From Aquirufa antheringensis (GTDB lineage Bacteria > Bacteroidota > Bacteroidia > Cytophagales > Spirosomataceae): a DNA stretch of 64,000 nt. The notes below the pieces were generated by a model. It saw only the letters and a program-made list of their open reading frames with translations, had not been told where the DNA came from and ran no database searches. Of the stretch, positions 13,085 through 57,170 are shown one piece after another. The DNA lies in contig NZ_SEWZ01000002.1 in NCBI RefSeq assembly GCF_004307425.1, positions 500,935 through 564,934 on the forward strand. The letters are read 5' to 3'. Numbering within the stretch: the stretch's first letter is position 1; the number at the start of each line of letters is the position of its first letter. The translations under genes and the position numbers were made by a program.

Positions 13085-13178
13085 GTCGGGAGTCGATAGT
13101 TGCTAGTCGATAGTCGGGAGTCGATAGTCGGGGGTCGATAGTCGGGAGTCGATAGTCGGGAGTCGATAGTCGATAGTT
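13085..13178. repeat. Heptad/14-bp tandem repeat (AGTCGAT-AGTCGGG)
   Basis: About six copies of a 14-bp unit made of two 7-bp words, AGTCGAT and AGTCGGG, in the space upstream of ggt. A few single-base changes and one AGTTGCT variant occur. The period is strictly a multiple of seven. It lies between the ggt start and the plus-strand gene at 13285, with no obvious promoter inside. The open frame that crosses it is a repeat artefact. Confidence 0.85.
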
Positions 13179-42842: not shown

Positions 42843-43469
42843 ATGAAAGCAGCCATCATCAAACAGTATTTCCCCACCATCACCGAGCAGCAATTAGCCC
42901 AATTCGAGCAATTGTTCCCCCTGTATGCAGAGTGGAATGAGAAAATCAATGTCATTTCCCGCAAAGACATTGATAACCTGATGCTGCACCACGTATTACA
43001 CTCCCTCGCCATCGCCAAATTCGTCGATTTCAAACCCGGCACCGAAATCTTAGACGTCGGCACCGGCGGCGGCTTCCCCGGCATCCCTTTGGCCATCCTA
43101 TTCCCGGAAGTAAACTTCCACCTTGTGGATAGCATAGGGAAGAAGATCAAAGTCGTTCAAGGCGTCGCAGAAGCCCTAGGCCTCAAAAACGTCCAAGCCA
43201 CCCACGGCCGTGCCGAGGATGTGGACGGCGAGTTTGAATTCGTCGTATCTCGCGCGGTCACCCGTCTACTGCCTTTCTTCGGTTGGGTGAAGAATAAGAT
43301 TAGCCTAAACAGCTACCACGATGTGAAGAATGGCCTGCTTTGCCTAAAAGGCGGAGACTTGCAAGAGGAATTGCAAGAATTCGGTAGAAAGCACAAGGTC
43401 TATCATCTTTCCAAAAGCTTTAAAGAGGATTTCTTCGAGACGAAGAAGTTGGTGCATGTAGCGCTGTAA
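42843..43469 (+). CDS. rsmG: 16S rRNA (guanine-527-N7)-methyltransferase
   Basis: The ATG at 42843 gives MKAAIIKQYFPTITEQQLAQ (208 residues); the longer reading lies inside the TPR gene. RsmG hallmarks are LYAEWNEKINVISRKDIDNL, the SAM-binding motif ILDVGTGGGFPGIPLAILFP and SRAVTRLLPFFGWV. It methylates G527 of 16S rRNA, and its loss gives low-level streptomycin resistance. The last codons and the stop form the first small hairpin of the repeat array that follows (GCGC on both sides of TGTAA). Confidence 0.93.
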   Translation: MKAAIIKQYFPTITEQQLAQFEQLFPLYAEWNEKINVISRKDIDNLMLHHVLHSLAIAKFVDFKPGTEILDVGTGGGFPGIPLAILFPEVNFHLVDSIGKKIKVVQGVAEALGLKNVQATHGRAEDVDGEFEFVVSRAVTRLLPFFGWVKNKISLNSYHDVKNGLLCLKGGDLQEELQEFGRKHKVYHLSKSFKEDFFETKKLVHVAL

Positions 43470-43471
43470 GC

Positions 43472-43620
43472 GCAGTCGTCACTACGTGACTTAGTCGCCC
43501 TGCGGGCTTGGTCATCGCTGCGCGATTTAGTCATGACGCTTCGCTTAGTCGGCGCGTTGCGCCCTAGTCGCCCTGCGGGCTTGGTCATCGCTGCGCGATT
43601 TAGTCGACTCCGTCTTAGTC
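43472..43620. repeat. Micro-hairpin array 1 (TTAGTC-separated)
   Basis: About nine units, each a short perfect or near-perfect palindrome with a 3-base loop, separated by TTAGTC or variants TTGGTC and CTAGTC. Stem-loop-stem units in order include GTCAC-TAC-GTGAC, GCCC-TGC-GGGC, ATCGC-TGC-GCGAT, a degenerate GC-TTC-GC, GGCGC-GTT-GCGCC, GCCC-TGC-GGGC again, ATCGC-TGC-GCGAT again and GAC-TCC-GTC. Stems differ in sequence while base pairing is kept. This begins the 325-base gene-free stretch after rsmG, which also holds the heptads and the palindrome element listed next. Confidence 0.85.
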
Positions 43621-43626
43621 AATGCT

Positions 43627-43670
43627 TTGAACTTTGGTCTTTGCTCTTTGAACTTTGATATTTGAATCTT
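43627..43670. repeat. Degenerate heptad repeat TTTGNNN
   Basis: Consecutive 7-base words TTTGAAC, TTTGGTC, TTTGCTC, TTTGAAC, TTTGATA and TTTGAAT run in phase straight into CTTGACA, the left arm of the palindrome at 43669. The period of seven is exact. Confidence 0.8.
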
Positions 43671-43738
43671 GACAGAATGTGTCAATACCTGAAAACGCCT
43701 CTGAGTGCCTCGACGTTATTTTACTAAAAGTGTATTTA
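43669..43738. repeat. Palindrome element, copy 1
   Basis: TTGACA, five bases, TGTCAA (43669-43685), followed by a right flank that starts TACCTGAAAACGCC and continues TGAGTGCCTCGA to a T-rich end. The flank is shared with the copies at 47.9 and 51.8 kb. The left side is occupied by heptads instead of a matching arm. Confidence 0.8.
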
Positions 43739-43755
43739 CGGATCAGGAGGGCCTA

Positions 43756-43790
43756 TCTATACTCTATAATCTCTACTCTCTTATCTAAGT
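43756..43790. repeat. Degenerate heptad repeat TCTNTAN
   Basis: Five in-phase 7-base words: TCTATAC, TCTATAA, TCTCTAC, TCTCTTA and TCTAAGT. They end five bases before the 3' end of the LytTR gene. Confidence 0.65.
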
Positions 43791-43794
43791 CGCT

Positions 43795-44148
43795 CTACGA
43801 CTGCTGCGCAGCAGCTTTAAACAAATCCTTCAACGGTTTAATTTGGCGACGCGAGATGGTCACCTGATGTTGGTTGATTAAACGAATGCTTTTGTGGATA
43901 TTGAAATCGATCGCCTGAATGGCATTCATGTTTACGATAGCTGATTTAGACGGGCGAATGAATCCGCGATCTAGTAGGCTGGGCTCGAAGTATTTTAATG
44001 TTCGGCAGGAGATGATCTTTCGTCCGTCCGATAAATAGAATTTGGAATAATTTCCTTCGCCTTCGATGCGTAAAATAGTATCAATACAAACTTTTTGATC
44101 GCCGATCAGAAGTTCATAGCATTGCTCTCTCTTAATATTAACGGTCAT
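43795..44148 (-). CDS. Stand-alone LytTR DNA-binding regulator
   Basis: The ATG at 44148 gives MTVNIKREQCYELLIGDQKV (117 residues); the TTG 24 bases upstream is less likely. The LytTR domain spans almost the whole protein: DTILRIEGEGNYSKFYLSDG, RKIISCRTLKYFEPSL, RGFIRPSKSAIVNMNAI and TISRRQIKPLKDLF. LytTR proteins bind direct repeats in the major groove through beta strands and usually carry a receiver domain; here there is none, so activity must be controlled by level or a partner. No histidine kinase is adjacent. The 254 bases upstream hold nothing I recognise except the promoter box of the next gene. Confidence 0.82.
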   Translation of the reverse strand: MTVNIKREQCYELLIGDQKVCIDTILRIEGEGNYSKFYLSDGRKIISCRTLKYFEPSLLDRGFIRPSKSAIVNMNAIQAIDFNIHKSIRLINQHQVTISRRQIKPLKDLFKAAAQQS

Positions 44149-44378
44149 AATTTGGAACAGTTGATGAGACAAAACTACGTCCTTGGATCCCCTTTTGTAA
44201 TAATAATTAGGTTATTTGCGTTATTGACTATTATTGGGTTTATTTCGTTTATTTACCGGTGGATAAATGATAGCTTACATATATTTTTTATATGAAATAC
44301 ATATAAAAAGCAACATGAAAGGTGTTGCAAACAAGTCTTTCACGTAGTATTCGGGGCAGGGGTAACGAGAATTTTGCT

Positions 44379-44386
44379 TATTTTTG
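44379..44386 (+). promoter_or_regulatory. Aldo/keto reductase promoter -7 box
   Basis: TATTTTTG is an exact TAnnTTTG match, 16 bases before the ATG at 44403. The -33 element is not clear. Confidence 0.5.
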
Positions 44387-44402
44387 GAAATAAATAAACA
44401 CT

Positions 44403-45374
44403 ATGAAAACAAGACGATTTGGCCGGACGAACTGGCATGTGAGTGAAGTGGGATATGGCATGTGGGGCTTGGCCGGTTGGACCGGATCTGATATTGAGGA
44501 AGTCAATAAATCTTTAGACCGTTCGGTTGAGCTGGGTTGTAATTTTTTTGACACGGCTTGGGGCTATGCGGAGGGTAAGAGTGAGGAAATCTTGGGAGGT
44601 CTTTTGAGACGTCATAAAGAAACCACCTTATACGCTGCGACGAAGATTCCGCCCAAAAACTTTACCTGGCCATCCAAGTCTCATTTCAAAATAGAGGACT
44701 GTTTTCCGGCTGCGCACATCGTGGAATACACAGAGAAAAGTTTGCGCAATCTGAAAGTGGAGCAAATTGATTTGCAGCAGTTCCATGTGTGGGAAGATGC
44801 GTGGGCAGATCGCGATGAGTGGAAAATGGCGGTGGAGAAATTAACGAAAGAGGGAAAAGTCGCTCATTGGGGAGTTTCGGTGAACCGTTGGGAGCCAAAC
44901 AACTGCTTGCAGACCTTGGAAACGGGATTGATTTCCTCGGTGCAGGTGATTTACAATATTTTTGACCAAAATCCAGAAGACCAATTATTCCCCCTTTGTA
45001 AGAAATTAGACGTGGGTGTGATTGCGCGTGTGCCTTTTGATGAGGGAAGTTTGACGGGTTTGATGACTTATGAAACGACTTTCCCGGCGAATGATTGGCG
45101 TTCGACCTATTTCGTTCCGGAGAATTTGATTTCGAGTGTGGATCACGCGAATGCGTTGAAACCGTTGGTTCCAGAAGGGATGGATTTACCTGAAATGGCC
45201 TTGCGTTTCATCCTGTCGAATCCAGATGTGGGCACGATTATTCCAGGTATGCGGAAGATTAAGCACGTAGAAAGTAATACAGCCACTTCGGATGGCAATG
45301 GTTTATCAACAGAATTAGTAGAGGAGTTGCGCGCGCACCGTTGGGAGCGTCAGCCTACTTCTTGGTCGCAGTAA
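44403..45374 (+). CDS. Aldo/keto reductase
   Basis: 323 residues forming a TIM-barrel NADPH-dependent oxidoreductase. Typical features are SEVGYGMWGLAGWTGSD, the catalytic-Asp and Tyr region in GCNFFDTAWGYAEGKSEEIL, and VEQIDLQQFHVWEDAW. The usual catalytic His-loop (K/H in the LYAATKIPPKN region) is present. The C-terminal SNPDVGTIIPGMRKIKHV binds cofactor phosphate. It reduces carbonyls of sugars or aldehydes; the substrate is unknown. Its 3' end overlaps the convergent rhodanese-thioredoxin gene by 20 bases. Confidence 0.88.
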   Translation: MKTRRFGRTNWHVSEVGYGMWGLAGWTGSDIEEVNKSLDRSVELGCNFFDTAWGYAEGKSEEILGGLLRRHKETTLYAATKIPPKNFTWPSKSHFKIEDCFPAAHIVEYTEKSLRNLKVEQIDLQQFHVWEDAWADRDEWKMAVEKLTKEGKVAHWGVSVNRWEPNNCLQTLETGLISSVQVIYNIFDQNPEDQLFPLCKKLDVGVIARVPFDEGSLTGLMTYETTFPANDWRSTYFVPENLISSVDHANALKPLVPEGMDLPEMALRFILSNPDVGTIIPGMRKIKHVESNTATSDGNGLSTELVEELRAHRWERQPTSWSQ

Positions 45375-46062
45375 AGAGTTCTTTTAACGCGGCCTCTTCC
45401 CGAAATCCCGATGTTTTAGTGATCAACTCCCCTTTGGAGAAGACCATGAAACTCGGGATTTCGTCTATTCCGTAGGCCTGCATGATGGCCTGGTTGCCGT
45501 CCGCTTCGACCTTTAAAACGGTAACTTTACCTTTGAATTCTTCGGCTAATTTATCGACGATGGGCATCATTTTAAGGCATGGCGCACACCATTTGGCATA
45601 GAAATCAACCACAACGGCGTCAGATGAAGCGATTTCTTTTTTGAAGTCTCCCAAATTCCAAGCCGCATCATGCTTCACATCGGGTACTCCCTCTAAAGGC
45701 TTCAGACGAGTCGTCCATTTCAAATAGCCCCCTTTCATTTCGGTCACTTGAAAACCAGCCGCGCGCATTTGTTCTGCTGCTTGGGCAGAACGACCGCCGG
45801 AAAGACAATAGATTAATACTGGTTTATCTTTTGAAAGTTGCGCGACCTTGGCGCTGAAATCGGGGGAACGAAAGTCGATGTTCATCGCCTTTGGCAAATG
45901 TCCTCCTCCAAATTCCCCCGTCGTCCGCACATCCAGCAAATAAGCGTTCGGCGTCTCTTTGATCTTCTTTTCGAAGGTATCCACGTCTACATTTTGGCCA
46001 AACGTGTTGAGCTTCAGTAGTGAAACAAAAATCAATGACAGATAGGCGATGCGAATTTTCAT
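45355..46062 (-). CDS. Exported rhodanese-thioredoxin fusion protein
   Basis: The start MKIRIAYLSLIFVSLLKLNT gives a signal peptide ending FGQ (235 residues). Residues about 30-125 are a rhodanese domain with YLLDVRTTGEFGGGHLPKA and the active-site loop VLIYCLSGGRSAQAA (catalytic Cys). Residues about 135-235 are a thioredoxin domain with DFYAKWCAPCLKMMPIVDKL (CAPC redox pair) and the cis-Pro in DEIPSFMVF. The fusion probably handles sulfane sulfur or disulfides in the periplasm. It is divergent from eno and converges with the aldo/keto reductase. Confidence 0.85.
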   Translation of the reverse strand: MKIRIAYLSLIFVSLLKLNTFGQNVDVDTFEKKIKETPNAYLLDVRTTGEFGGGHLPKAMNIDFRSPDFSAKVAQLSKDKPVLIYCLSGGRSAQAAEQMRAAGFQVTEMKGGYLKWTTRLKPLEGVPDVKHDAAWNLGDFKKEIASSDAVVVDFYAKWCAPCLKMMPIVDKLAEEFKGKVTVLKVEADGNQAIMQAYGIDEIPSFMVFSKGELITKTSGFREEAALKELFTATKK

Positions 46063-46129
46063 GACTTTAATACGGATTTTAGGCAAAATTTACGTTATTT
46101 TGCAAGGCAATTTAGCCAATAATAAGTAA

Positions 46130-47434
<1,305 letters not shown>

Positions 47435-47438
47435 TTCT

Positions 47439-47759
47439 ATGCTCGATCGCGTACGTAGTTTATTTTTAGGGCCAAATCGTTTCTATTACGTCTCCACCAG
47501 TGTTTTATTGGTTTGGATGTTCGTATTAGATACAAACGATCTTTCGGTCCAATATAGACTCTACACCGAATTGGCAGACCTGAAGGCAGAACACGAATAC
47601 TATCGGCACAAATTAAAGGAGCTGAAACAGGAGCGTGCTGCCGTGATGGGCAATCCAGCGTTGTTAGAAAAATACGCTCGCGAAAAGTACTTCATGAAGC
47701 GACCATCCGAGGATGTCTTCGTGATAGTAGATCAGGAGAATCAACCGATTGAAAAATGA
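47439..47759 (+). CDS. FtsB/DivIC-family septum formation protein
   Basis: 106 residues. One transmembrane helix (about 14-32) is followed by a coiled coil (about 45-75, ADLKAEHEYYRHKLKELKQE) and the conserved end LLEKYAREKYFMKRPSEDVF and VIVD. This is the DivIC/FtsB build; in the divisome these proteins link FtsL and FtsQ. The gene is 4 bases after eno, a pairing common in bacteria (eno-ftsB). A strong terminator follows immediately. Confidence 0.85.
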   Translation: MLDRVRSLFLGPNRFYYVSTSVLLVWMFVLDTNDLSVQYRLYTELADLKAEHEYYRHKLKELKQERAAVMGNPALLEKYAREKYFMKRPSEDVFVIVDQENQPIEK

Positions 47760-47790
47760 AAAAAGTCCAGCAGAAATGCTGGACTTTTTT
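47760..47790 (+). terminator. Intrinsic terminator of the eno-ftsB operon
   Basis: A 13-bp stem (AAAAAGTCCAGCA and its complement) with a GAAA tetraloop ends in six T. It begins one base after the stop codon at 47759. Confidence 0.92.
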
Positions 47791-47795
47791 CATTT

Positions 47796-47843
47796 CAAAG
47801 AGCAAAGTTAAAAGTTCAAAGAGCAAAGCTCAAAGTTCAAAAG
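47796..47843. repeat. Degenerate heptad repeat (complement TTTGNNN)
   Basis: On the minus strand seven in-phase words read TTTGAAC, TTTGAGC, TTTGCTC, TTTGAAC, TTTTAAC, TTTGCTC, TTTGAAA. It begins right after the eno-ftsB terminator. A lone micro-hairpin (CGCC-TGC-GGCG) follows at about 47850-47860. Confidence 0.8.
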
Positions 47844-47898
47844 TGGCATCGCCTGCGGCGAATCGTATAGAGGAATTTATGCAATCTGCCTTTCCGGC

Positions 47899-48016
47899 CT
47901 CTAAACCCAATAAAGTGTGAAATAAACTTCGAGGCACTCAGGCGACTTTTCAGGTATTGACAGAATTTGTCAATACGCGAAAATGCCATTTAGTGCCTTG
48001 AAAGTATTTTAACCCA
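47899..48016. repeat. Palindrome element, copy 2 (full-length imperfect inverted repeat)
   Basis: The centre is GTATTGACA, five bases, TGTCAATAC (47954-47976, perfect 9-bp arms). Both flanks are related in inverted orientation: the complement of the left flank reads CTGAAAAG..GCCTGAGTGCCTCGAAGTTTATTTC in pieces, and the right flank reads GCGAAAATGCCATTTAGTGCC then TTGAAAGTATTTT. This makes an imperfect hairpin of roughly 100 bases. It lies in the 396-base gene-free stretch between ftsB and gpmI, with heptads on one side and array 2 on the other. Confidence 0.8.
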
Positions 48017-48060
48017 TTTGTGCCCTAGGAGCACCCAGGGCCATATCGGACTCATTCCCT

Positions 48061-48154
48061 CCGGACTAAGCGACGCAGTCGCGACTAAGTCCCGTAGGGA
48101 CGACTAGATCGCGTAGCGATGACTCCGACGCAGTCGGAATGACTTCTAGTCGAC
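48061..48154. repeat. Micro-hairpin array 2 (complementary orientation)
   Basis: Read on the minus strand the units are CCGAC-TGC-GTCGG, ATCGC-TAC-GCGAT, GTCCC-TAC-GGGAC and GCGAC-TGC-GTCGC, separated by TTAGTC, CTAGTC or AGTC. All have 5-bp stems and 3-base loops. Orientation relative to palindrome copy 2 is the same as in loci 1 and 4. Confidence 0.85.
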
Positions 48155-48156
48155 TT

Positions 48157-48193
48157 ATTTTAAATCAAAAAGCGGAGCTTTTCAATTTAAAAT
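48157..48193 (-). terminator. Large AT-rich hairpin containing the gpmI stop codon
   Basis: 17-bp arms (48157-48173 and 48177-48193) pair with two mismatches around a 3-base loop. The gpmI stop codon (48187-48189) lies in the stem. On the minus strand there is no clear T-run beyond it, so it may terminate weakly or protect the mRNA end. Confidence 0.5.
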
Positions 48194-49707
48194 AATGCCA
48201 CCCCCGTCATCTCTTTCGGTTGAGCCACGCCCATCATTTTCAAGATCGTAGGAGACACATCACCCAGTTTACCGTCGCGAAGCGTAGGTTTGAATTCGTT
48301 GTCTACCAAAATACATGGAACAAGGTTCGTTGAATGGGCTGTGTTTGGCGAACCATCTTCATTCATCATTACGTCCGCGTTACCGTGGTCAGCGATGATG
48401 ATGAAGGAATAGCCGTGGGCTAGACCCGCTGTTACGACTGCCTCGGCGCAAGCGTCTACCGTTTCGACTGCCTTCACTACGGCAGAGAAAACGCCCGTGT
48501 GGCCTACCATGTCAGGATTAGCAAAGTTTAAGCAGACGAAGTCTACCTCCTCTTTTTCTAATTCTGGGATCAACGCATCGCGAAGATCTGCGGCAGACAT
48601 TTCGGGTTGAAGATCGTAGGTGGCGACTTTTGGGGAGTTGCGTAGGATGTTTTGTTGTCCTGTGAAAAGGGCCTCGCGACCGCCTGAGAAGAAGAATGTA
48701 ACGTGTGGGTATTTTTCGGTTTCGGCGATGCGAATTTGTTTTTTGCCTGCGCCCTCAAGGACCTCGCCCATTGTCATTGGTAGGTTGGAGTCGTTGAAGA
48801 TGACGTGGACGTTTTGGAATTCTTTATCGTATTCCGTCATCGTCAAGTAGTACAAATTCATTTTGTGCATGTTCTCCTCGTGGAAATCACGCTGTGTTAA
48901 AGCCTGCGTGATTTCGCGGCCACGGTCCGTGCGGAAGTTGAAGCAGATTACTACGTCGCCCTCTTGGATGTTGCCAATTGGAGCACCGGACGCATCCGTC
49001 ATGATGATTGGGTGGATGAATTCGTCCGTTACACCTGCAGCGTAGCTCGCTTCGATGGATTTCAATACATCGGTAGAAGGAGTTCCTTCGCCGTGGACCA
49101 TCGCTTTGTAGGCCAAAGCCACGCGCTCCCAGCGATTATCGCGGTCCATCGCGTAGTAACGACCCGTTACTGAAGCGATTTGCGTGTTGGTTTTAAGTGT
49201 ATGTTGGTATAAATCGGTCATGAATTTCAGACCTGATTTGGGATCCGTATCACGGCCATCTGTGAAAGCGTGGACGAAAACGTTGCCCAAACCTGCCTCT
49301 GACGCCGTCGAAAGCAAGGATTTCAAGTGCTCGATGTGTGCGTGAACGCCGCCGTCGGACACAAGACCCATGAAGTGAACGGATTTGTTATTTGCTTTAG
49401 CATAGTCGAATGCTTTCGCTAATTCAGGCTCCTGGCCCAAAGTATTTTCTGTGACTGCTTTGTTGATGCGAACGAGGTTTTGGTAGACCACGCGGCCTGC
49501 CCCTAAGTTCATGTGGCCCACTTCTGAGTTGCCCATTTGGCCCTCTGGTAAACCTACTGCTAAGCCGGACGCCTCTAATTTCGAGTGCGCATATTTGCTG
49601 TAAAGCGAAGAAATAAATGGCGTTTTGGCCGCGTCGATTGCGGAAACTTTGGGGTTTGTTGCGATGCCCCAGCCATCTAAGATCATTAAAACTACTTTCT
49701 TATCCAT
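48187..49707 (-). CDS. gpmI: 2,3-bisphosphoglycerate-independent phosphoglycerate mutase
   Basis: 506 residues of the alkaline-phosphatase superfamily. Features are VVLMILDGWGIATNP (first Asp metal ligand), the nucleophile Ser in MGNSEVGHMNLGAGRVVYQN, HAFTDGRDTDPKSGL, SVTGRYYAMDRDNRWER, NFANPDMVGHTGVF and IIADHGNADVM with late metal ligands. It interconverts 3- and 2-phosphoglycerate with Mn2+, the step before enolase encoded 750 bases away on the other strand. A TAATTTTG promoter box lies upstream at 49732. Confidence 0.96.
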   Translation of the reverse strand: MDKKVVLMILDGWGIATNPKVSAIDAAKTPFISSLYSKYAHSKLEASGLAVGLPEGQMGNSEVGHMNLGAGRVVYQNLVRINKAVTENTLGQEPELAKAFDYAKANNKSVHFMGLVSDGGVHAHIEHLKSLLSTASEAGLGNVFVHAFTDGRDTDPKSGLKFMTDLYQHTLKTNTQIASVTGRYYAMDRDNRWERVALAYKAMVHGEGTPSTDVLKSIEASYAAGVTDEFIHPIIMTDASGAPIGNIQEGDVVICFNFRTDRGREITQALTQRDFHEENMHKMNLYYLTMTEYDKEFQNVHVIFNDSNLPMTMGEVLEGAGKKQIRIAETEKYPHVTFFFSGGREALFTGQQNILRNSPKVATYDLQPEMSAADLRDALIPELEKEEVDFVCLNFANPDMVGHTGVFSAVVKAVETVDACAEAVVTAGLAHGYSFIIIADHGNADVMMNEDGSPNTAHSTNLVPCILVDNEFKPTLRDGKLGDVSPTILKMMGVAQPKEMTGVALF

Positions 49708-49731
49708 CTTTTATTGTATTACATTTCACCA

Positions 49732-49739
49732 CAAAATTA
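49732..49739 (-). promoter_or_regulatory. gpmI promoter -7 box
   Basis: The minus strand reads TAATTTTG, an exact TAnnTTTG match, 24 bases before the ATG at 49707. A TTG occurs only 12 bases upstream, closer than the usual -33 spacing. Confidence 0.5.
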
Positions 49740-49759
49740 CCCATTTCTAGGCAATTCCC

Positions 49760-50437
49760 CTAGATTCTATTGCTCATTTGTTCTGCCAAAGCCTTGATAT
49801 CCACCACCTCAATCGTCTTCTTTTCGGTCGGAAAGGCAGCCACCTCGATCATCGCCTTTGCTAATTCCTCCAAAGTAGACGCCGTCTTCCCCGCCACCAA
49901 AAGCAGCAGCGGATACATCCAGTCGATGTATTTATAGTATTTCAAGGTGAATTTATTCCCCCTCATTGGCTGCAAATACCCCGGTCTAAACGAATAAGAA
50001 TCCCGAAAACCCATCTTTTTCAGATCATTTTCCGTCTTCCCCTTCACCCTCGCCCACATAATCGAACCCTTTTCGGTGCTGTCTGTGGACATCCCGGAAA
50101 TATAGCTGAAGCTTATATGTTTGGGCATTTGAGCCGCAAAACCCAAAGTCAAATCATAGGTCTTACGCCTAAACTCCTCTTCTTTCATCCCCACGGACGA
50201 AACTCCGAGGCAAAATAGGCACGCATCGTAATCTTTGGCGACCTCTTTAATCTCCTCCGGCTGATAAAAATCGGCCAAAAAATACTCTTTTAATTTCGGG
50301 TGCGAGTGACCAGACGGCTTGCGACTAATCGCCAAAACCTCTTTCACAAACGGCGAACGCAACGCCTCCAACATCACGCCCTCGCCCACCATCCCGGTTA
50401 CCCCGGTCACAATCACTTTGATTTGTGGATTTTCCAT
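49760..50437 (-). CDS. NAD(P)-binding Rossmann-fold protein (HTATIP2/atypical SDR-like)
   Basis: 225 residues. The N-terminal VIVTGVTGMVGEGVMLEALR is a GxxGxxG dinucleotide motif of atypical short-chain dehydrogenases, followed by YDACLFCLGVSSVGMKEEEF and SFSYISGMSTDS with ARVKGKTENDLKK (Y/S and K of the active-site region replaced). The C-terminus has one hydrophobic stretch (YIDWMYPLLLLVAGKTAST). Such proteins reduce or epimerise sugar- or lipid-linked groups, or only sense NADPH; the activity here is unknown. It is divergent from the Dabb gene. Confidence 0.8.
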   Translation of the reverse strand: MENPQIKVIVTGVTGMVGEGVMLEALRSPFVKEVLAISRKPSGHSHPKLKEYFLADFYQPEEIKEVAKDYDACLFCLGVSSVGMKEEEFRRKTYDLTLGFAAQMPKHISFSYISGMSTDSTEKGSIMWARVKGKTENDLKKMGFRDSYSFRPGYLQPMRGNKFTLKYYKYIDWMYPLLLLVAGKTASTLEELAKAMIEVAAFPTEKKTIEVVDIKALAEQMSNRI

Positions 50438-50463
50438 TGTAGAATTGAAAAAATATTAAACCT

Positions 50464-50850
50464 ATGTCTACTTCCCGCCGCGATTTTATCGCCCTAGCCT
50501 CGACCTTGCCCTTTGTGGCATCAGCTGAACCTTCAACGAAAATGACCTTTATACATCATGTGTTGTTTTGGGCCAAAAACCCAGCCTCCACCACCGAAAC
50601 CGATCAACTCTACCGCGCCCTAAAAACGTTAGGCACCCTCCCGATGATCACTTCAGCCCACGTAGGCAAGCCCATCGTCACCGATTTTGACAAATCCGTT
50701 ACAGAAGCAAGTTACACCTTTTCGGTAGTCCTTGTTTTCGACAGCGCCGAAAAAGAAAAAGAATACCTCTACCACCCACTCCACAAGAAGTTCATTGAGG
50801 AGAACATGCACCTTTGGGGAAAAGTTCAGGTGATAGATTCGCTTGCGTAG
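50464..50850 (+). CDS. Dabb-domain protein with Tat-like signal, second copy
   Basis: 128 residues. The N-terminus STSRRDFIALASTLPFVASA is a twin-arginine-like signal. The Dabb barrel shows FIHHVLFWAKNPAS, SYTFSVVLVFDSAEKEKEYL and the ending HPLHKKFIEENMHLWGKVQV. It is clearly paralogous to the protein at 1972-2355 but stands alone, so the family is not tied to the monooxygenase operon. The last codons and stop (TAG at 50848-50850) form the loop and arm of the first hairpin of array 3. Confidence 0.75.
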   Translation: MSTSRRDFIALASTLPFVASAEPSTKMTFIHHVLFWAKNPASTTETDQLYRALKTLGTLPMITSAHVGKPIVTDFDKSVTEASYTFSVVLVFDSAEKEKEYLYHPLHKKFIEENMHLWGKVQVIDSLA

Positions 50851-51036
50851 CAAGTCGCCGCGAAGCGGCTTAGTTGCGACGCTTCGCGAAGTCGCCCTGT
50901 GGGCTTAGTCGACGCGTTGCGTCTTAGTCATCGCTGCGCGATTTAGTCAATGGGCTTCGCTTAGTCGCCTTCGGCTTAGTCATTGCTTCGCGATTTAGTC
51001 ACGACTTTGTCGTTTAGTCGTCCTGCGGACTTAGTC
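50842..51036. repeat. Micro-hairpin array 3, overlapping a stop codon
   Basis: The longest array, about eleven units. It starts inside the Dabb gene with CTTGC-GTA-GCAAG (containing the stop codon), then GCCGC-GAA-GCGGC, GCGA-CGCT-TCGC (4-base loop), GCCC-TGT-GGGC, GACGC-GTT-GCGTC, ATCGC-TGC-GCGAT, a degenerate unit, GCC-TTC-GGC, ATTGC-TTC-GCGAT (one wobble), ACGAC-TTT-GTCGT and GTCC-TGC-GGAC. Separators are TTAGTC. No palindrome element lies between it and the next gene. Confidence 0.88.
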
Positions 51037-51042
51037 AGCGGA

Positions 51043-51333
51043 TTATTTTTTGAGTAATATCATAATGGCTACAACGTTGACCGCCATCTGAGTAATCCAA
51101 AAGAAGCACATCCATTGGAATATTTCCAATTTAGCTTCTATTAACTGAATTTCTAGTTTATTGAATTTTTCAAGGAGCCTTATTTCTAAGGTGTTCATAC
51201 GTTCTATGCTTCTCAATTCCAAATGATTCAATTTTACCGGTATCTCAGAAAGTTTTTGATCCAGGTATTCTTTCGTCACCAGATTTTCGAATCGGTGATC
51301 TTGCAGTTTATTAATACTTGAATCAGCGTTCAT
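51043..51333 (-). CDS. Small coiled-coil membrane-anchored protein (DUF1640/CCDC90-like), copy A
   Basis: 96 residues. A charged helix with LVTKEYLDQKLSEIPVKLNH and a heptad-patterned coil (ERMNTLEIRLLEKFNKLEIQ) leads to one C-terminal membrane helix (about 72-93) ending LLKK. This build matches the DUF1640/CCDC90 group, whose members have a coiled coil and a tail anchor. It is paralogous to the next gene (TKEY/TKEF, KLEIFQW/KFEILKW, then FFW/FIFW). The pair lies between micro-hairpin arrays 3 and 4. Confidence 0.6.
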   Translation of the reverse strand: MNADSSINKLQDHRFENLVTKEYLDQKLSEIPVKLNHLELRSIERMNTLEIRLLEKFNKLEIQLIEAKLEIFQWMCFFWITQMAVNVVAIMILLKK

Positions 51334-51358
51334 GGCATCGCGTTGATAGGATATGAAT

Positions 51359-51610
51359 TTATTTTTTGATTAGCATTAGAACGATGCCAATTGTGATGGA
51401 TAACTGGCCTACCCAAAAGATAAATAGCCATTTTAGAATTTCAAATTTCGTTTCAGAAAGTTCTTTGCTTACAAATTCCTTTGTGGCCAGATTCTGATCT
51501 AAGTGGTCGTGCATTTCGTGAATGGTGGATACAAATTCCATGGCGTCAGAATCTTTCAGGTGCAATTTAGCACGAGCTAAATCGTATAGTTTGATGTTTA
51601 GTGGTTGCAT
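51359..51610 (-). CDS. Small coiled-coil membrane-anchored protein (DUF1640/CCDC90-like), copy B
   Basis: 83 residues. The N-terminal part includes LYDLARAKLHLKDSDAMEFV. A short coil (DQNLATKEFVSKELSETKFE) precedes a C-terminal membrane helix ILKWLFIFWVGQLSITIGIV that ends LIKK. It is 25 bases upstream of copy A on the same strand, and a tandem duplication is likely. In some genomes DUF1640 proteins are linked to addiction-like or mobile regions, but nothing here proves that. Confidence 0.6.
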   Translation of the reverse strand: MQPLNIKLYDLARAKLHLKDSDAMEFVSTIHEMHDHLDQNLATKEFVSKELSETKFEILKWLFIFWVGQLSITIGIVLMLIKK

Positions 51611-51661
51611 GGATAAATGTAACCCATTTTTTGGATATTACCCTTTAATAAACTGATAATT

Positions 51662-51784
51662 TGGTCGTCCTGCGGACTTAGTCACTACGCTTCGCTTAGT
51701 CGCCTTCGGCTTAGTCATCGTTGCGCGATTTAGTCATCACGCTTCGCTTAGTCGCCTTCGGCTTAGTCATTGCTTTGCAATTTG
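51662..51784. repeat. Micro-hairpin array 4
   Basis: Units in order: GTCC-TGC-GGAC, a degenerate unit, GCC-TTC-GGC, ATCGT-TGC-GCGAT (one wobble), a degenerate unit, GCC-TTC-GGC and ATTGC-TTT-GCAAT, separated by TTAGTC and ending with TTGGTC. This opens the 373-base gene-free stretch that also holds heptads, palindrome copy 3 and a second heptad run. Confidence 0.88.
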
Positions 51785-51815
51785 GTCTTTGAACTTTGCA
51801 ATTTGAATCTTGACA
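51785..51815. repeat. Degenerate heptad repeat TTTGNNN leading into a palindrome
   Basis: In-phase words TTTGAAC, TTTGCAA and TTTGAAT run into CTTGACA, the left arm of palindrome copy 3. The order array, heptads, palindrome is the same as at 43.5 kb. Confidence 0.75.
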
Positions 51816-51890
51816 CAATCTGTCAATACCTGAAAAGCTGCCTGAGTGGCTCGAACTTTATTTCGCACTTTATTGGGTTTAGGACTCATA
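51810..51890. repeat. Palindrome element, copy 3
   Basis: TTGACA, five bases, TGTCAA (51810-51826). The right flank reads TACCTGAAAAG, then GCCTGAGTGGCTCGAA, TTTATTTCGCACTTTATTG and GGTTTA. It agrees with the complement of the left side of copy 2 almost base for base over about 65 positions. Confidence 0.82.
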
Positions 51891-55734: not shown

Positions 55735-55788
55735 TAAGTCGCGTGGTACGCAGGCGGCTTTTCAGGTATTGACAGATTTTGTCAATAC
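55735..55788. repeat. Palindrome element, copy 4 (half element)
   Basis: GTATTGACA, five bases, TGTCAATAC (55766-55788, perfect arms). The left flank complement reads TACCTGAAAAGCCGCCTG, as in other copies. The right arm ends exactly on the first base of the antitoxin stop codon (55788), so the right flank is missing. No micro-hairpin array is nearby. Confidence 0.82.
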
Positions 55789-57104: not shown

Positions 57105-57170
57105 GCCACTGAGAGCCGTTTCCAGGTATTGACAGATTGTGTCAAAAGCTGAAAAAGCCGTTTATACAAT
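57105..57170. repeat. Palindrome element, copy 5
   Basis: TTGACA, five bases, TGTCAA (57129-57145) with both flanks related in inverted orientation: the left complement reads ACCTGGAAACGGCTCTCAGT and the right reads AGCTGAAAAAGCCGTTTATA. It is the second copy with two arms. The remaining gene-free bases of 56960-57314 show only a short GCCTATAGGC palindrome (about 57193) and an AT-rich stretch just before the MHS gene. Confidence 0.75.

Follow-up and report, generated by a model that had tools for sequence, protein, structure and literature searches.

Intergenic arrays of tandem mini-hairpins, kept in register by the word TTAGTC, occur at four places between positions 43461 and 51784 of a 64,000-nucleotide stretch of the Aquirufa antheringensis genome (assembly GCF_004307425.1, contig NZ_SEWZ01000002.1, positions 500,935 to 564,934 of the forward strand), the whole of which is called the window here. 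The interpretation placed first, to which we give about an even chance, is that they are an AGTC-tagged minisatellite of DNA mini-hairpins whose units persist through folding of the strand reading GACTAA. According to this interpretation the GACTAA strand would fold as a C-GNA-G mini-hairpin when the DNA is single-stranded or negatively supercoiled, the hairpins would form as DNA in the cell, and changes that spoil folding would be lost or offset by a second change. Units would be duplicated or lost as nascent or template strands fold, by which arrays may extend to a gene edge, and AGTC would be read by a protein or would provide the register for slippage. What may and what may not vary in the units fits known rules for small hairpins extruding from twisted DNA.

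Units of the four arrays and their excess over chance

Direct reading reveals that a regular unit is a perfect stem of 3, 4 or 5 pairs with a 3-base loop (9, 11 or 13 nt) and that the joint between regular units is TTAGTC or a close variant; the right-hand neighbour of 371 units is TTAGTC in 305 cases and otherwise a close variant. These are the stem lengths, loops and joints given in a preliminary description of this DNA, and the four arrays lie where it placed them, the one at 48061-48154 being on the minus strand. Its figure of about 30 units is approached when irregular units are included by eye. A strict parser, which requires AGTC or GGTC on both sides of a 9-, 11- or 13-nt hairpin and allows at most one mismatch in 11- and 13-mers and none in 9-mers, counts 7, 3, 7, and 5 units, respectively, 22 in all, and skips irregular units such as the ANNACGCTTCGC 12-mers and the hairpins at gene ends. 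The arrays and their units are as follows.

43461-43620, plus strand: array 1, 3′ of an rsmG/gidB-like gene (gene call, Pfam GidB)
43461-43473, plus strand: first hairpin of array 1, GCGCTGTAAGCGC, which overlaps the stop codon
43478-43490, 43497-43507, 43514-43526, an irregular 12-mer, 43551-43563, 43570-43580, 43587-43599 and 43606-43614, plus strand: further units of array 1
48061-48154, minus strand: array 2, 3′ of the gene for 2,3-bisphosphoglycerate-independent phosphoglycerate mutase, with orthologous arrays in six sister genomes
48070-48082, 48089-48101, 48108-48120 and 48124-48138, minus strand: units of array 2
48155-48195, minus strand: long gene-end hairpin adjoining array 2, with a 19-position stem, 2 mismatches and the loop GGA on the plus strand
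50842-51036, plus strand: array 3, 3′ of a Dabb-domain gene
50857-50869, 50894-50904, 50911-50923, 50930-50942, 50967-50975, 51001-51013 and 51020-51030, plus strand: among the units of array 3
51662-51784, plus strand: array 4, upstream of a small minus-strand open reading frame (ORF) and facing its 5′ end
51667-51677, 51702-51710, 51754-51762 and 51769-51781, plus strand: among the units of array 4, together with ANNACGCTTCGC 12-mers

The excess over shuffled sequence that the preliminary description proposed to look for is present. In 762,161 bases, made up of the window plus 35 further stretches from its genome, the strict parser finds 25 arrays with 131 units, whereas 20 first-order Markov resamplings each give 0 arrays. 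A detector blind to the spacer, with a fixed 6-base joint, finds 30 chains (126 units) in these 762 kb and 3 chains (9 units) in one shuffle, and the commonest joint that it recovers is TTAGTC/GACTAA, accounting for 55 of the joints in the 30 chains. Applied to 80 other Bacteroidota loci (1.26 Mb), the same detector returns 8 chains with 24 units; chains using one joint word at least twice number 18 of 30 in the window's genome versus 0 of 8 in those loci. A loose detector (spacers of 3-9, loops of 3 or 4) does not discriminate, since it finds 26 chains in the 80 loci and 28 in the window's genome; none of the 25 chains listed from the 80 loci is a TTAGTC-like array. Among all 178 AGTC-N13-NN[A/G]GTC places, unfiltered, in the stretches from genomes G000 and G007, which comprise 100 distinct 13-mers, 128 pair at all five positions, and the paired fraction among distinct 13-mer rows is 0.718, against 0.379 in column-shuffled rows (standard deviation 0.018, maximum 0.440 of 1000); array counts from these two genomes share a common ancestry.

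The arrays belong to a small group of relatives. An AGTC...CTNCG...AGTC pattern, in which only AGTC and CTNCG were fixed, gives 428 matches in 10 of 38 same-genus genomes, compared with 1 match to a reversed control in those ten, and one further genome of the genus has a single match; most of the relatives, several carriers included, are incomplete drafts. Across the phylum, 33 of 395 genomes match, and the 32 besides the window's have one match each; one of these matches is fully paired over the four free positions and another has one mismatch.

Loop rule and turnover between sister genomes

The units also obey a loop rule that the preliminary description does not mention: the closing pair is C-G and the loop TNC (C-TNC-G), which reads C-GNA-G on the opposite strand. 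The rule holds in 314 of 398 perfect units, with exceptions concentrated in five-pair stems: it is followed by 82 of 85 three-pair, 47 of 50 four-pair, and 185 of 263 five-pair stems, and by 3 of the 31 five-pair stems that are all-GC (short versus five-pair stems, Fisher p = 3e-10, for units that are related by duplication). A rule that is strict on weak stems and lax on strong ones is the pattern expected from selection on folding. The closing pair and the first loop base are near-invariant, the last loop base is held less strictly, and the middle base is free. GNA loops on at least two G-C pairs are reported to form extraordinarily stable DNA hairpins (PMC4686876), and the promoter hairpin of phage N4 is reported to require a C-G closing pair and G..A loop edges for extrusion and to form below physiological superhelical density (PMC4496689). 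Single mismatches of the transition type favour G.T on the GACTAA strand by 16 to 5 (p = 0.027), a lean that singles out this GNA-loop strand, although weakly.

Orthologous loci indicate how the units change. The phosphoglycerate mutase beside array 2 is 97-100% identical to its counterpart in seven of the ten carriers, the other three having no mutase match; in array-less genomes identity does not exceed 90% over full-length matches and reaches 94% in partial ones. All seven carriers with the mutase gene hold array units at this locus, 2 to 10 each in the fetched sequence, compared with none in 23 fetched loci of non-carriers. The array is at the same place, directly downstream of the mutase gene, in all seven, and is found in none of the 14 non-carrier loci that include downstream sequence. 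Whole units are gained and lost between sister species, and unit number and stem sequence differ between orthologous arrays. Pairing is mostly kept, as the preliminary description required of close relatives, for example through a compensated double change that gives GTCCC/GGGAC in the window and GCCCC/GGGGC in G007. The same turnover is seen in thirty flank-linked array clusters that span more than one genome label (102 arrays were entered, arrays without a matched flank were excluded, and 30 pattern-search loci carry no genome label). Tandem blocks are duplicated as well, such as a two-unit block repeated along locus L005.

In 194 aligned orthologous unit pairs, taken as those with at most three differences, differences fall on the first loop base in 5, on the middle base in 66, and on the last base in 30, and the closing pair is changed in 5. 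Spacer positions 1-3 differ in 22, 13, and 13 of these units, respectively; positions 4-6 could not vary, because the aligned units chosen by the parser carry [A/G]GTC. Among 703 non-closing stem pairs, 19 differ on both arms and still pair, and 24 differ on a single arm or fail to pair in one of the species. The existence of these one-arm intermediates is more readily explained by mutation and subsequent compensation than by whole-unit copying alone. The proposal that structure and not sequence is copied or selected is borne out in that pairing is kept across 34 different stems among the perfect units of the 371-unit set, and in orthologous double changes; it is too broad in that constraint also falls on the spacer word, on the closing C-G pair, and on the loop edges, more strictly on the first base than on the last. 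The long hairpin at 48155-48195 has one arm within the end of the mutase gene, and in sister genome G015 a T-to-C change in the mutase coding end (TTATTTTAA to TTATTCTAA) is paralleled by a change in the other arm.

A purely mutational origin, in which slippage and arm-to-arm copying make palindromes and folding is unconstrained, would account for the tandem blocks, for the simple heptad repeats described below, and for gene-end palindromes having one arm in coding sequence. This origin is nevertheless scarcely credible, as arm copying leaves the held closing pair and loop edges, the free middle base, and the laxity of all-GC stems unexplained, one-arm changes are not rare beside two-arm changes, and the three loop positions change at unequal rates.

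Several points weigh against persistence of the units through folding of the GACTAA strand. Extrusion is inferred rather than observed, and the units are related by duplication, so that their counts are not phylogenetically independent. The loop rule is broken by 78 of 263 five-pair stems, 47 of which are not all-GC, and it breaks in ordinary stems too (ATCGC, 16 of 83; ACGAC, 13 of 37). For single units the ViennaRNA energies are equal on both strands, and folds of whole arrays have no consistent strand preference: RNA energies are lower on the TTAGTC strand in three of the four arrays, and DNA energies are lower on the GACTAA strand in two of the four. The energy model does not separate the two loop types, and the strand preference therefore rests on the literature and the mismatch count. 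Moreover, conserved array positions across species combined with a constrained spacer could equally mean a host function.

Orientation, gene edges and the AGTC word

Orientation was evaluated for 42 arrays at least 1.5 kb from the end of a stretch and with genes on both sides, gene edges being those of a simple hexamer gene finder made for this analysis. Among 25 solo arrays, a count that omits the 17 arrays sharing an intergenic region, 22 have the TTAGTC strand pointing outward from the closest gene, whichever end of that gene faces the array. The ten array pairs within one intergenic region comprise 7 convergent, 3 tandem, and 0 divergent pairs. Of the 42 arrays, 24 have on their 5′ side a gene whose 3′ end faces them and 18 a gene whose 5′ end does, the distance to the start codon being 2-11 bases in five cases. 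The genes beside arrays are of unrelated kinds.

These data bear on the suggestion, made in the preliminary description, that the arrays are a structured RNA. In a more specific form of this idea, the hairpins would lie in the untranslated regions of mRNA and terminate or stabilise it. The 3′ ends presented in 24 of 42 arrays, the two window arrays that start at or near a stop codon, and the favourable RNA folding of the arrays are consistent with such elements. A role at the level of the transcript should make the loop rule follow the transcript, and it does not: relative to transcription of the nearest gene, 79 of 102 units conform where the TTAGTC strand is transcribed and 73 of 93 where the other strand is. 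This uniformity of the loop rule, together with the arrays that face gene 5′ ends, argues against a structured RNA; in addition, no lean to G.U on the TTAGTC strand is seen among the mismatches, and none of 4227 Rfam families matches the window at gathering score. We consider RNA elements improbable, and action at the DNA level is favoured by the strand-independent loop rule, the outward polarity, and, weakly, the mismatch lean. The other two suggestions of the preliminary description, a landing pad and a slippage product favouring short palindromes, may each apply.

A link to replication is not claimed, since the position of dnaA (0.4 kb) and the flip of third-position skew (near 220 kb) in G007 disagree and do not fix origin and terminus. 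In this genome the array places are unevenly spread: 11 of 23 are within the chromosome quarter around the half-way point, and 4 of 23 are beyond 1.46 Mb of the 2.51 Mb of contig C1; TTAGTC is on the presumed leading strand in 29 of 66 hits and on the lagging strand in 37.

Also beyond the preliminary description, the constant word is AGTC, which is common to the hairpin arrays and to arrays of AGTCNNN heptads. The latter occur in 17 of 38 genomes of the genus, namely nine of the ten carriers and eight others, and five of the heptad-only genomes have several matches to the reversed word pattern as well. In 10 of 11 intergenic cases AGTC heptads likewise point outward from the closest gene, a polarity that TTTGNNY heptads lack (1 of 7). 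The simplest reading, taken without a tree, is that plain AGTC heptads are older and that the hairpin form has arisen in one sub-clade. The window contains one such heptad array:

13085-13178, plus strand: AGTCNNN heptad array, with the AGTC word and without hairpins

The chief alternative is a host-serving DNA site. A protein would read AGTC/GACT, folded linkers would bring words that are 15-19 bases apart to ∼6, near the 7 of the heptads, or the arrays would be torsion buffers at gene edges. The outward polarity tracks AGTC, not the hairpin, being common to solo hairpin arrays and heptads; arrays are kept at orthologous places, and the three spacer positions that could vary do so less than the middle loop base. 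Conversely, the reader protein is hypothetical, the genes next to the arrays fall into no common class, sister genomes differ freely in unit number and order, and the parser-selected units gave spacer positions 4-6 no opportunity to vary. On balance we regard a host site as rather unlikely. Tentatively, and as a possibility to which we give slightly more weight, the two ideas may be combined in supercoil-extrudable mini-hairpin arrays, in which the folding of single-stranded DNA is inherited and the folded linkers would set a protein-read AGTC at constant short spacing. Between maintenance at the level of the unit, as a self-keeping DNA element, and service to the host, the former is somewhat more likely.

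If the self-keeping minisatellite of DNA mini-hairpins is real, hundreds of very short DNA hairpins that vary naturally, with compensation, under the N4 loop rule are available in ten related genomes, the formation and importance of tiny cruciforms in living chromosomes become testable by comparison and probing, and the arrays would show how plain 7-base repeats may become structured ones.

Other repeats and genes accompany the arrays. TTTGNNC heptad repeats lie beside them at 43625-43670 and 47794-47841, and of 7 such arrays in the 762 kb, 3 are within 400 bases of a hairpin array. A second dispersed repeat has the palindromic centre TTGACANNNTNTGTCAATACC followed by ∼50 bases of similar sequence; contig C2 holds all 13 of its matches in the window's genome, 9 of which are no more than 400 bases from an array. 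Outside the ten array carriers, all of which have it, it occurs once, in one further genome of the 38 from the genus. Its copies in the window are:

43669-43689, plus strand: TTGACANNNTNTGTCAATACC repeat
47953-47973, minus strand: TTGACANNNTNTGTCAATACC repeat
51810-51830, plus strand: TTGACANNNTNTGTCAATACC repeat
55765-55785, minus strand: TTGACANNNTNTGTCAATACC repeat
57125-57145, minus strand: TTGACANNNTNTGTCAATACC repeat

Locus L232 of same-genus genome G006 holds AGTCCGNAGG-type repeats, whose AGTC strand could fold into a CC-GNA-GG mini-hairpin, and the similar CGGAGGGAA ends come after several hairpin arrays. Two small ORFs between arrays 3 and 4 (51043-51333 and 51359-51610, minus strand) have no Pfam match. 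In a scan with the phosphoglycerate mutase the nearest named records are a pond Cytophagaceae metagenome-assembled genome (86%) and a Flectobacillus sp. (76%).

Comparison with known repeat systems

Among the matches listed from titles and abstract openings of the open-licence literature, no description of such arrays was found. An array of clustered regularly interspaced short palindromic repeats (CRISPR) has longer identical repeats between unique spacers and is accompanied by cas genes. The arrays described here are not of this kind, as their constant part is 6 bases and their variable part is self-complementary; no search for cas genes was made. A phage or plasmid origin is weakened by the lack of a match in plasmids or phages to one 195-base array used as a blastn query. 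In viral contigs three exact 13-mer pattern hits occur, and the parser found a paired unit in none of them.

Of named classes, the arrays come closest to tagged repetitive extragenic palindromes (REPs). The GTAG and CGTC super-families (PMC3733652) likewise have a short unpaired tag beside a palindrome, many intergenic copies, and stems that vary somewhat within a family; the CGTC tag has the letters GTC in common with AGTC, and no transposase is known for its group in that account, and GTAG REPs are associated with a Y1-family transposase, the REP-associated tyrosine transposase (RAYT). The tag here is AGTC, however, not GTAG or CGTC (TGTC, CCTC). Stems of 3-5 pairs and loops of 3 bases compare with 8-9 and 4-5 for CGTC REPs and 5-13 and 2-20 for GTAG REPs (PMC3733652), so that no unit has the CGTC sizes, whereas the 263 five-pair units among the 398 perfect ones are inside the GTAG stem range and the 135 shorter ones outside it. 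The three-base REP tail, mostly CCA in the CGTC, GTAG-1, and GTAG-2 groups, has no counterpart here, in that no CCA tail is seen. REPs are predominantly dimers of opposite orientation and rarely head to tail, in contrast to units placed head to tail at a fixed 6-base joint, with over thirty stem sequences within one genus and loops under the GNA rule. The arrays are accordingly not filed as tagged REPs, from which they depart in tag, in tail, in layout, in the lack of a transposase match in the carriers and, among the shorter units, in stem length.

Mobilisation of tagged palindromes by a REP-type single-strand transposase is also very unlikely. The short tag 5′ of a palindrome in intergenic DNA would suit it, and some REPs have five-pair perfect stems, as one account describes (PMC8266576). 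Besides the differences in tag, tail, and tandem layout, the Y1 transposase family PF01797 is matched in 12 of 38 genus genomes, all of them non-carriers, and in none of the ten carriers, several of which are incomplete drafts.

In the hairpin itself the nearest parallel is the promoter of the N4 virion RNA polymerase (PMC4496689), which has a tiny stem, a 3-base loop, a C-G closing pair, and G..A loop edges, the other stem bases being reported as largely free; the likeness lies in loop chemistry and presumed function, not in descent. The N4 hairpins are single phage promoters read by the phage's own polymerase, whereas tandem arrays in bacterial intergenic DNA are found here, with extrusion only presumed.

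The short palindromic repeats of Volvox organelles and the hairpin elements of sponge mitochondria (PMC2670323, PMC2800124) are also intergenic, hairpin-forming, varying, and proliferating. They are organellar repeats of related sequence, ∼50 nt on average in Volvox, whereas in the present arrays stem sequences are replaced over time and the units are kept in register by a constant word. The TAACTGA heptamers of Beggiatoaceae, cyanobacteria, and some Bacteroidetes (PMC4679880) resemble the AGTCNNN arrays in being intergenic 7-base direct repeats near gene edges; they are, however, a fixed heptamer, mostly in one orientation before start codons in the main genome of that study, and the portion of the account at hand mentions no arrays of hairpin units. 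Compared with all of these, the arrays appear to be an unusual variant of known repeat types, in which folding is inherited across more than thirty stem sequences.

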